From assembly GCA_015061625.1 (NCBI GenBank), contig SUWG01000002.1, positions 124,001 to 188,000 on the forward strand: a stretch of DNA of 64,000 nucleotides, given 5' to 3'. A program made the translations under genes and the position numbers. The notes below the pieces were generated by a model that saw only the letters and a list, made by a program, of their open reading frames with translations, did not search any database and was not told the origin of the DNA. This document shows, piece after piece, positions 35,609-38,600 of this stretch (position 1 is its first letter; each line of letters starts with the position of its first letter). Origin of the DNA: Lentisphaerota bacterium. Its GTDB lineage: Bacteria > Verrucomicrobiota > Lentisphaeria > Victivallales > Victivallaceae.

Positions 35609-36589
35609 ATGAGTAAAAGCAATATCGGCAAAATAATAGTTTTTATTTTGTGTTTACTGCCGTTGAGCAGTTGGGGCAGAGAGTGTCACTTCTGTCACCA
35701 GAGAATTTCCGGACAATATTTTCATGCCTCCGGCAATGATTTTTGTTCGCGGGAGTGTTTTCTGGAAACTTTGCCCAAATGTTCTGTATGTGACAAACCA
35801 TGTGAACAAATGTATACTATGCAAGAGCGCAACTTTTGCAGTCGTGAGTGTATGCAGGAAATATACAAGTGTTCGGTATGTCAGAGAGGGGCGGAGCAGA
35901 TCTACTCATTATCCAATGATTACGGTCAGGAAAAATTGTTTTGTTCTCAATGCCGCTCATTGCCCAAATGTTATTATTGTTCATTCCCGAATAATCAGAG
36001 AAAATTGCCCGATGGCAGGCAAATTTGCCGTGATTGCCGTTCATCTGCCGTAACCGATCAACGGGAGATTCAGCGGATATTTAATCATTTGCGCAGTGAG
36101 TTGGCCAGAATTTACGGCTATGATAAACATCACCGGATCGAATTGCATATTGTCGATCTCCGGGAGTTGCACCGGCAGACTCCGGCAGCGCAACATGGCG
36201 GCGGAAATCAGTTGGGGTTGATGAAATACAGCAAAAGAGAAGAAGTGCGGAGGCGCGGCGGCCGGGAAGAACGGGTAATCGTCGAGGAAAACTGCCATAT
36301 ATACATCTTGAATACAATGCCCAGAATGATACTGATCAATACCATTGTCCATGAATTGACACATGATTATATCCGGCATAATATCGGAGAAGTTCGGGAT
36401 AAAACCAGCGAAGAAGGCTTTTGCGAATTGATCGCATCTCTCTATAATATCCGGATCGGCAATTCGATCCTTAACCGGGCCAAAGAGGCTTCCCGTGATC
36501 CGGTTTATGGTGGCGGTTACCGGCGGATGCGGGATATTTACCGCCGCAACAACCGCAGTTTCCGCCGTACATTGCAATCTGTACGTTGA
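35609..36589 (+). CDS. Secreted Cys-rich (LIM/TRASH-like) DA1-type metallopeptidase
   Basis: A 326-residue protein. A signal peptide (~1-22) is followed by a region (26-143) with about eight C-x2/4-C pairs (CHFC, CSREC, CSVC, CSREC, CSVC, CSQC, CYYC, CRDC) that fit several treble-clef zinc knuckles. The C-terminal half has HELTH (248-252) and SEEGFCELIAS (267-277). HExxH plus EEGxCE is the signature of the DA1-like peptidase of plant LIM-containing DA1 proteins. I infer a secreted zinc peptidase. It is preceded directly by the dehydrogenase gene. Target unknown. Confidence 0.65.
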   Translation: MSKSNIGKIIVFILCLLPLSSWGRECHFCHQRISGQYFHASGNDFCSRECFLETLPKCSVCDKPCEQMYTMQERNFCSRECMQEIYKCSVCQRGAEQIYSLSNDYGQEKLFCSQCRSLPKCYYCSFPNNQRKLPDGRQICRDCRSSAVTDQREIQRIFNHLRSELARIYGYDKHHRIELHIVDLRELHRQTPAAQHGGGNQLGLMKYSKREEVRRRGGREERVIVEENCHIYILNTMPRMILINTIVHELTHDYIRHNIGEVRDKTSEEGFCELIASLYNIRIGNSILNRAKEASRDPVYGGGYRRMRDIYRRNNRSFRRTLQSVR

Positions 36590-36674: not shown

Positions 36675-38600
36675 ATGAAAAAGTTGTTGTTTGGGATTTT
36701 TTTGTGGATGATGCTCCCTGTTCTTTCTGCCGAAGTTTGCAGTGAAGATTCATGCGTTCTTCCCGGAGACAGCGGAGGAAGCTTGTCTTTCCGGGTACTT
36801 TTGCCGGTGGCAGATAGTGCCGTCCCCCGGATTTCACAGGCTCCACGTCTGACAACCTTATCCGGGAAAACGATTGCCATTGTTGGTGGCAGTTTTATGG
36901 CAAGGGTCACTCATCCGGAACTTAAAAGATTGATTTTGCAGGATTATCCGGATGCCAGAGTTATTTTGCTCAATGAGATCGGTTCCGCCGGACCATGGCC
37001 CATGCCCGGAGTTGTCCGTCACCAATATAACGAATTTATTGAACGACTTCGGCAATTTGGCGTAGATGCTGTGATTTCCGGCAATGGCGGCTGCGGATTA
37101 TGCACTCCCAAAGAATGCGGTTCATGTATTGCTGCTGAATATTGTGGTATTCCGGCGGTGATGATCGCCGCACCGGGATTTGATCGTCAGGCGCATTCGG
37201 TTGCCGCTAATGCCGGTATTCCGGTGTTGCGGGTCGCTGTTTATCCGGGCGCATTTTCTGCTCACAGCACTGAAGAATTGCTGGAAAATACCCGGAATAT
37301 ACTTTATCCGCAAATAATCAGGGCTTTGATATCACCGATCAGTGACGATGAAGTTTCACAAACAGGGGGAACTTTAGAACGTGAATTTACCGGCACTTAT
37401 CAGGAAATAAACCGGTATTTTGCAGATAATGGTTGGAGTGATGGTTTGCCGATTGTACCACCGACCAGGGAATTGGTTGATGAATTCTTGAAGTTTTCGG
37501 TTTATCCGGCGGATATGGTTGTTGCGACAGTGCCGCCAGCCAACCGCAAAATCACTGCAGAAATGATTGCCGTAAATGGAGCAATGTCCGGTTGTCCTCC
37601 GGAATTTATGCCGATACTGATCGCTTTTACTCAAGCAATGACCAATGGCGATTTCCGGCGGACATTGGCCAGCACTCATGCGTGGACACCGTATTGCTGG
37701 ATAAACGGGCCGCTTGCCCGGCAGTTGGGGATCGATTATGCTCAAGGTGAAATTTCCCATCAACGCAACGCTTTGATCGGTCGGTTTATAAATTTGGCGA
37801 TGCTCAATTTCGGCGGTTATTATATCAAACAGAACCGGATGGGTACTTTCGGTTATCTTATGCCGTGGTGTCTGGCAGAAGATGAGCAACAGGCTGTTGC
37901 CATCGGCTGGCTGCCTTATCATATGCAAATGGGATATCAGTTAAATGAAAGCACCCTTACTGCATCATCGGCGTTGAATTGGGGCAATAATCTTACTCCG
38001 GCGACCTCTGATCCATTAAGGGTGATGGAGTTGATCGCTATGGATGCGGTTGAAAAAGAACAGTTTGCATTAGGCAGCGGTACTCCGTTTGTTTTTAGGA
38101 CTTTTCTGATTACCGGCAGTGTCGCAGAAATTCTCGCAGGGCAATACCGCAGTAAAAGAGATTTTGAAAATGCTTTGATCGCAACGGCCTTGCGCCCGGT
38201 GATGGAAAGAGTGTATGCTAATTATTGGGCTAATCCGGGCAGTTCATTTGATCCGGCAACTTATCCATTGAGTCGCCATGCAATCCGGATCAGCCGTCAG
38301 GAAAACAGTCGCAAAGTTGCGGTTCCGGAGTATTTGCGTTGGACGGCCTTGCCGGAAATTGAAATGGTTCCGGTCATGCAAGCCGGAAAAAGTGCAATTT
38401 TGATTACCGGTGATGCCAGCCGCAATAAAAGTATGTGTTTGCCGGGTGGAGGATATGTTACGATCCGTATCCCTCTGCCGGAAAATTGGGATGAGTTGAT
38501 GTGTGCCAAAGGCTATGAGCCATTGACTTCATTCTTTTTGAGCAGTGATCTGGTACCGGAACGTCAACCAAGTCGTTTCCAAAATTATCCCCGTCGTTGA
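36675..38600 (+). CDS. Secreted UGSC-like two-domain protein
   Basis: A 641-residue protein with a signal peptide (1-19). Domain 1 (~64-215) starts GKTIAIVGGSF and carries two C-x-x-C motifs: CGLC (140-143) and CGSC (148-151), then GIPAVMIAAPGF; this resembles the UGSC (Sec/Cys-Gly-Ser-Cys) family, here in an all-Cys form. Domain 2 (~240-640) begins NGWSDGLPIVPPTREL and continues VNGAMSGCPPEFMPIL, a conserved protein usually encoded separately near UGSC genes. Function of both is unknown; a thiol-redox role is plausible. Standalone gene with AGGGAGA before the ATG. Confidence 0.6.
   Translation: MKKLLFGIFLWMMLPVLSAEVCSEDSCVLPGDSGGSLSFRVLLPVADSAVPRISQAPRLTTLSGKTIAIVGGSFMARVTHPELKRLILQDYPDARVILLNEIGSAGPWPMPGVVRHQYNEFIERLRQFGVDAVISGNGGCGLCTPKECGSCIAAEYCGIPAVMIAAPGFDRQAHSVAANAGIPVLRVAVYPGAFSAHSTEELLENTRNILYPQIIRALISPISDDEVSQTGGTLEREFTGTYQEINRYFADNGWSDGLPIVPPTRELVDEFLKFSVYPADMVVATVPPANRKITAEMIAVNGAMSGCPPEFMPILIAFTQAMTNGDFRRTLASTHAWTPYCWINGPLARQLGIDYAQGEISHQRNALIGRFINLAMLNFGGYYIKQNRMGTFGYLMPWCLAEDEQQAVAIGWLPYHMQMGYQLNESTLTASSALNWGNNLTPATSDPLRVMELIAMDAVEKEQFALGSGTPFVFRTFLITGSVAEILAGQYRSKRDFENALIATALRPVMERVYANYWANPGSSFDPATYPLSRHAIRISRQENSRKVAVPEYLRWTALPEIEMVPVMQAGKSAILITGDASRNKSMCLPGGGYVTIRIPLPENWDELMCAKGYEPLTSFFLSSDLVPERQPSRFQNYPRR

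Follow-up and report, generated by a model that had tools for sequence, protein, structure and literature searches.

A probable exported cousin of the UGSC selenium-enzyme family in a Lentisphaerota bacterium, with conserved cysteines that resemble an electron relay

UGSC accounted for 255 selenoprotein sequences in a 2008 ocean survey, where it stood among the larger families (Table 2, in the accessible text of PMC2398784), and a 2026 review, in its available portion, counts it among the families with largely uncharacterized functions (PMC13188914). Neither a function nor an exported form was found in the titles and abstract openings of the papers listed by PMC searches on UGSC selenoproteins. 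A gene located in a 64,000-nucleotide stretch of a Lentisphaerota genome (contig SUWG01000002.1; the whole stretch analysed is called the window below) encodes a secreted-looking protein in which a UGSC-like domain is joined to a second conserved domain, and it raises the question of what chemistry such a protein might perform outside the cytoplasm. The protein is probably an exported cousin of the selenium-enzyme family, and its conserved cysteines, as far as sequence comparison can tell, look like an electron relay. Our preferred, though still tentative, reading is an exported two-domain thiol reductase whose N-terminal arm would be fed by a periplasmic DsbD/thioredoxin-like route.

Domain make-up, family membership, and distribution

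The gene and its parts, with the evidence for each in brackets, are located in the window as follows.

36675..38600, + strand: whole gene, secreted-looking two-domain UGSC protein of 641 aa (ORF, translation, orthologues)
36675..36731, + strand: probable signal peptide, residues 1-19 (by eye, cleavage LSA / EVC)
36738..36755, + strand: N-terminal dithiol arm Cys22-x4-Cys27, followed by VLPG (both Cys in 32/32 orthologues)
36795..37328, + strand: UGSC domain, residues 41-218, predicted alpha/beta fold (PF24696, AF2 models, fold comparison)
37092..37103, + strand: motif C140-G-L-C143, the UGSC equivalent (alignments to UGSC/CGSC relatives)
37116..37127, + strand: second CxxC string, CGSC, residues 148-151 (32-row alignment)
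37392..38597, + strand: second (partner) domain, residues 240-641 (13-sequence partner alignment)
37593..37595, + strand: Cys307 within AVNGAMSGCPPEFMP (32/32 orthologues, 13/13 partner sequences)

The gene has a plausible ribosome-binding site, agggagag. The N terminus of its product, MKKLLFGIFLWMMLPVLSAEVCSEDSCVLPG, consists, as judged by eye, of a signal-peptide-like stretch and a Cys pair after it, and a 10-residue stretch with at least seven residues from the set AILMFVW precedes the pair in 30 of 32 aligned orthologues. We infer that the protein is exported. Residues 41-218 match PF24696 with E=2.8e-14 and 54 bits against a gathering cut-off of 25, which makes the protein a Pfam-level UGSC member and agrees with the earlier note, where the gene had been read as a signal peptide fused to a UGSC-like domain and then to a conserved domain of the NGWSDGLPIVPPT type. 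The latter indeed begins at about residue 240, downstream of the UGSC domain in the same ORF. The score against the NCBIfam UGSC equivalog NF041046 is 37.7 bits, below the cut-off of 125, so that the protein is a divergent Pfam-level member and no equivalog. The motif of the family, with Sec or Cys first and Cys last, is present, since CGLC aligns with UGSC/CGSC. The protein shares with the UGSC family (PF24696/NF041046) the domain match, the position of UxxC/CxxC, and a partner domain that in several organisms adjoins it, but differs in its signal-peptide-like start, Cys in place of Sec, the N-terminal dithiol arm, and the divergent sequence.

The AF2 models of the UGSC domain are of low to modest confidence, and of low confidence in the motif loop. 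In the model with a mean pLDDT of 62.8, five strands alternate with helices in a flavodoxin/Rossmann-like alpha/beta arrangement, whose tied fold matches include PurE, CheY-like proteins, and dehydroquinate synthase. A thioredoxin fold has been suggested for UGSC in the accessible part of the 2008 paper (PMC2398784); no thioredoxin is among the 50 fold matches listed for this model, which excludes nothing. For the partner domain (residues 240-641), profile searches matched no Pfam or NCBIfam family and no GrdE-type model.

Matches to the protein were obtained in 13 of 60 genomes, every one in its own genus; a sample of 387 genomes from the phylum gave 39 with a match, some of these being fragments (the own genome is included in both counts). 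One relative is a Lentisphaerae MAG (L018). In an unrooted tree built from 16 of the 32 aligned rows and 12 outside rows, with long branches among the latter, a single branch separates the 16 secreted rows from the outside rows in 200/200 bootstrap trees, and nothing beyond this grouping is taken from the tree. Some copies are broken or partial; those in G002 (L010/L016) and G064, for example, appear truncated or divided between two reading frames, which may reflect either a gene that some genomes can do without or errors in assembly.

No neighbouring gene is common to more than four of 22 regions in the phylum. In the window, a DA1-like protein (PF12315, E=2e-6; 35609-36589, + strand) is encoded 85 bases upstream on the same strand; it looks secreted, is rich in Cys pairs, and contains VHELTHDY, a stretch of the HExxH type. 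Two reductase-like proteins are encoded downstream on the minus strand, one resembling flavin reductases (PF01613, 38700-39275), the other NADPH-dependent FMN reductases (PF03358, 41445-42098), and PF03358 proteins also adjoin the UGSC orthologue in L018, L073, and L075.

Conserved cysteines and relatives outside the phylum

The conservation of individual residues was judged from an alignment of 32 full-length rows, i.e., the window protein and 31 loci, with fragments, same-genome duplicates, L005 (which entered another alignment), and some matches of the 387-genome survey omitted. Invariant positions number 134 of 641, and among them are Cys22, Cys27, Cys140, Cys143, and Cys307, as well as His80, His197, and His335, each kept in 32/32 orthologues. 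Both C-x-x-C strings named in the earlier note exist, and the first, CGLC, has held its place as the UGSC motif, with neither of its cysteines replaced in any row. The refuting outcomes named in the earlier note were looked for: a UGSC HMM match is present, and the CGLC cysteines are retained in 32 of 32 orthologues. The second string, CGSC at residues 148-151, did not hold as a feature of the family: Cys151 is found in 30 of 32 orthologues and Cys148 in the window protein alone, the remaining rows having Met (15), Thr (13), Ala (2), or Val (1). The invariant Cys22, Cys27, and Cys307 had been overlooked at that first reading.

Relatives outside the phylum were collected by a tblastn search against plasmids, which gave 24 records; 18 of them were inspected, 16 annotated and two unannotated. 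When motif contexts are aligned, GGCGLCT of the window protein corresponds to GDUGSCTSW in Acidovorax and to GDCGSCTKF or GDCGSCSSW in haloarchaea. The survey for homologues with Sec that had been proposed was fruitful, as an in-frame TGA occupies the position of Cys140 on plasmids of Acidovorax sp. T1, Paracoccus ferrooxidans, and P. versutus; in P. ferrooxidans, this UGSC gene is flanked by annotated selA and selB, one to either side and neither more than 9 kb away.

A fusion of both domains was seen in Variovorax boronicumulans, Acidovorax T1 (through the in-frame TGA), Sporomusa, and Vibrio; Neorhizobium VafX2 has the fusion with a broken frame. UGSC and its partner are encoded by adjoining genes in haloarchaea, Roseovarius, Arthrobacter, Variovorax SRS16, and Paracoccus, and in Haladaptatus the partner gene was seen alone. 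Four haloarchaeal plasmids (Halorientalis, Halalkalicoccus, Halosolutus, and Halostagnicola; L027, L029, L030, and L095) carry a partner-UGSC-partner triple, in which the two flanking genes resemble each other. The statement of the earlier note that the NGWSDGLPIVPPT domain occurs as a separate gene near UGSC genes was correct, the adjoining genes being partly annotated as UGSC and partly recognizable as UGSC by translation. Cys307 is present in 13/13 rows of the partner-domain alignment; in Neorhizobium galegae VafX2, Ala stands at its position, as judged by eye.

A UGSC/Unknown_1 fusion was reported by Zhang and Gladyshev in 2008 (PMC2398784, accessible text), so a UGSC fusion as such is already known. 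It likewise consists of a UGSC domain and a conserved domain, Unknown_1, which may or may not be the NGWSDGLPIVPPT domain. The accessible text of that paper mentions no export, arm, or thioredoxin linkage, and what is new here is an apparently exported, all-Cys form of UGSC with a conserved dithiol arm.

Some of the relatives are tied to thioredoxin genes. A TrxR-type gene lies nearby in five of the 16 annotated plasmid neighbourhoods; the other 11 list none, and the gene tables are incomplete. The order is trxB-trxA-partner-UGSC in Arthrobacter, where the four genes stand in a row, and partner-UGSC-trxB in Roseovarius; trxB is also found in the neighbourhood in Variovorax SRS16, and the remaining two neighbourhoods, those of V. 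boronicumulans and Haloterrigena, encode Pyr_redox_2 proteins containing CTAC and CAKC.

The same relatives bear on a rather unlikely alternative, a covalent non-redox enzyme (isomerase, lyase, or transferase), in which Cys140 and/or Cys307 would act as a nucleophile or in acid/base catalysis and the arm would be a structural disulfide. The fused proteins on the Sporomusa (L028) and Vibrio (L091) plasmids, which keep the architecture, have MGTS instead of UGSC with no motif Cys, and genes for aconitase X and DUF126 are found close by; this suggests a non-redox branch of the UGSC family. Given the lack of a motif Cys in these two and of Cys307 in Neorhizobium, the fold can work otherwise. A non-redox enzyme would also accord with the flavodoxin/Rossmann-like model and its tied matches and with CoA-transferases, without a TrxR-type gene, in some neighbourhoods. 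However, three relatives have an in-frame TGA (Sec) within the motif, which, like trxB/trxA beside some relatives, points to redox chemistry, and both motif cysteines are invariant in the 32 orthologues.

The N-terminal arm and DsbD

If the protein is an exported thiol reductase, the N-terminal Cys pair is a candidate entry point for electrons. A C-x(3-5)-C pair follows the signal peptide in all 32 orthologues. In 26 of them (six are without it), it extends to C-x3-5-C-x-[LIVMAP]-P, as against one of 254 control ORFs, in which the pattern, composed after the sequences had been viewed, was allowed anywhere in the ORF. Since the bare C-x3-5-C is common in the controls (within the first 60 residues in 25 of 254), the weight lies on the tail of the motif and on its conservation. 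The arm is absent in fused relatives that lack a signal peptide (P0003, P0004, P0010, and the Vibrio protein), and a similar sequence, CADGVCAL, forms the C-terminal tail of the Roseovarius partner.

The arm resembles a hairpin in the N-terminal part of DsbD-like proteins; the corresponding hairpin of E. coli DsbD carries its redox cysteines. In the genomes studied here, 25 of 57 DsbD-like proteins (8/30 in the 60-genome set and 17/27 in UGSC carriers) have the arm pattern ahead of their membrane part, and 32 lack it; three further loci in the DsbD search contained no DsbD-like ORF. It may be bare, directly after the signal peptide, as in CVDGVCYLP, or lie within a larger N-terminal region, as in CNDAGVCFMP and CSGEVCLLP; CTDTMCYLP is another example. 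The likeness lies in the C-x(n)-C-x-[LM]-P hairpin, a short motif alone, and may be convergent; a Pfam scan with E up to 1 detected no DsbD domain in the UGSC protein. According to the available text on DsbD, electrons pass from the membrane part to the C-terminal domain and from there to the N-terminal domain (PMC13095759).

In the DsbD encoded in the same genome (L104:692-2424, contig 36), the N-terminal periplasmic part seems to have shrunk to a bare arm, CDEETGIC, which lacks the proline, and the gene is preceded by a small ORF for a secreted-looking, thioredoxin-like protein. Similarly short-armed DsbDs occur in 10 of 29 relatives' loci (L106-L115). Seven of the 11 short-armed proteins (L105-L115) belong to genomes in which no UGSC gene was found. 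DsbD_TM is present in the own genome and in all 27 other carriers tested (27 of the 39), and the own DsbD was matched in 55 of 60 relatives, with or without UGSC. DsbD being near-universal among the relatives, its co-occurrence with UGSC is compatible with the proposed reading but is no proof of it.

The signal-peptide-like start, the DsbD-like arm, and the presence of DsbD_TM in 27/27 carriers tested would also suit a DsbD-fed periplasmic protein-disulfide reductase or isomerase, or a reductase of oxidants such as peroxide or sulfoxide, whose targets would be proteins or oxidants and no nutrient. We regard such a function as unlikely, because several relatives without a signal peptide sit among transport and catabolic genes and because a conserved partner of 400 residues would seem to exceed the needs of a chaperone-type reductase; the thioredoxin fold is also absent from the model and its listed matches, although, as said above, this excludes nothing.

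A putative electron relay and its meaning

For an exported two-domain thiol reductase, a close analogy is offered by selenoprotein B of glycine/sarcosine/betaine reductase (GrdB) and by D-proline reductase PrdB (PF07355, TIGR01918, and TIGR04483), where a subunit with Sec/Cys-x-x-Cys likewise works with a second subunit. Glycine/betaine reductase works with TrxB and TrxA, which are found in some of its gene clusters (accessible text of PMC6778437 and PMC8547467). The window protein weakly matches TIGR01918 over the motif region with E=0.017 (14.1 bits of the 65.45 cut-off) and TIGR04483 with E=0.032 (13.7 bits of 300), and TIGR01917 is matched by four of seven UGSC relatives, far below the cut-off (best E=0.0091). 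The level of these matches is similar to that at which an unrelated 7beta-HSDH model matched one of the seven (E=0.033). PF07355 was not matched by the window protein in a Pfam scan with E up to 1, and no GrdB match was obtained in the 387 genomes of the phylum, where no control genome matched either. The UxxCxxC motif of glycine reductase selenoprotein B, as given in the available text of PMC6778437 and PMC13188914, is absent, since C140-x-x-C143 is followed by the next cysteines at 148 and 151. The weak matches hint at a distant kinship with the glycine/proline reductase selenoproteins, which falls short of membership.

The mechanism that we envisage would start with DsbD, which would bring electrons to the periplasm and reduce the Cys22/Cys27 arm, from which they would pass to the CGLC/Cys307 site. 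Cys140 would be the nucleophile attacking a substrate held between the two domains, the second domain would bind this substrate and contribute to a joint active site, and Cys143 and/or Cys307 would resolve the intermediate as a disulfide, which the flexible arm would then reset. In relatives without a signal peptide, a thioredoxin system would supply the electrons instead of the arm. The logic would be that of the B components of glycine and proline reductases, i.e., a Sec/Cys subunit and a partner subunit paid for by TrxB/TrxA. Which way the electrons flow, what each Cys does, and the joint active site are our inference.

A secreted metal-binding protein, with Cys and His holding a metal ion, is improbable: five Cys and three His are invariant in 32/32 orthologues, but the second CxxC, which had prompted the idea of a metal site, is not conserved, and Sec at the Cys140 position together with the thioredoxin linkage of some relatives fits redox chemistry better. 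When the earlier note spoke of an extracytoplasmic thiol-redox or metal protein, its first half thus remains the best reading, and the second, for want of a conserved second CxxC, is left with little support.

Turning back to the thiol reductase, a bolder and rather doubtful extension would be that this exported branch of UGSC, patchy over the phylum, performs glycine-reductase-like reductive chemistry outside the cytoplasm, where its own copy of the DsbD hairpin would let DsbD or a thioredoxin-like partner plug in instead of cytoplasmic thioredoxin. Should the arm act in the way proposed, it would give an exported enzyme simple access to the electrons of DsbD. For the family as a whole, the protein displays the key residues, a conserved partner domain, and, in some relatives, ties to thioredoxin genes; since an all-Cys form with these residues and this partner domain can be expressed without the selenium machinery, it makes the function of the UGSC family directly testable.
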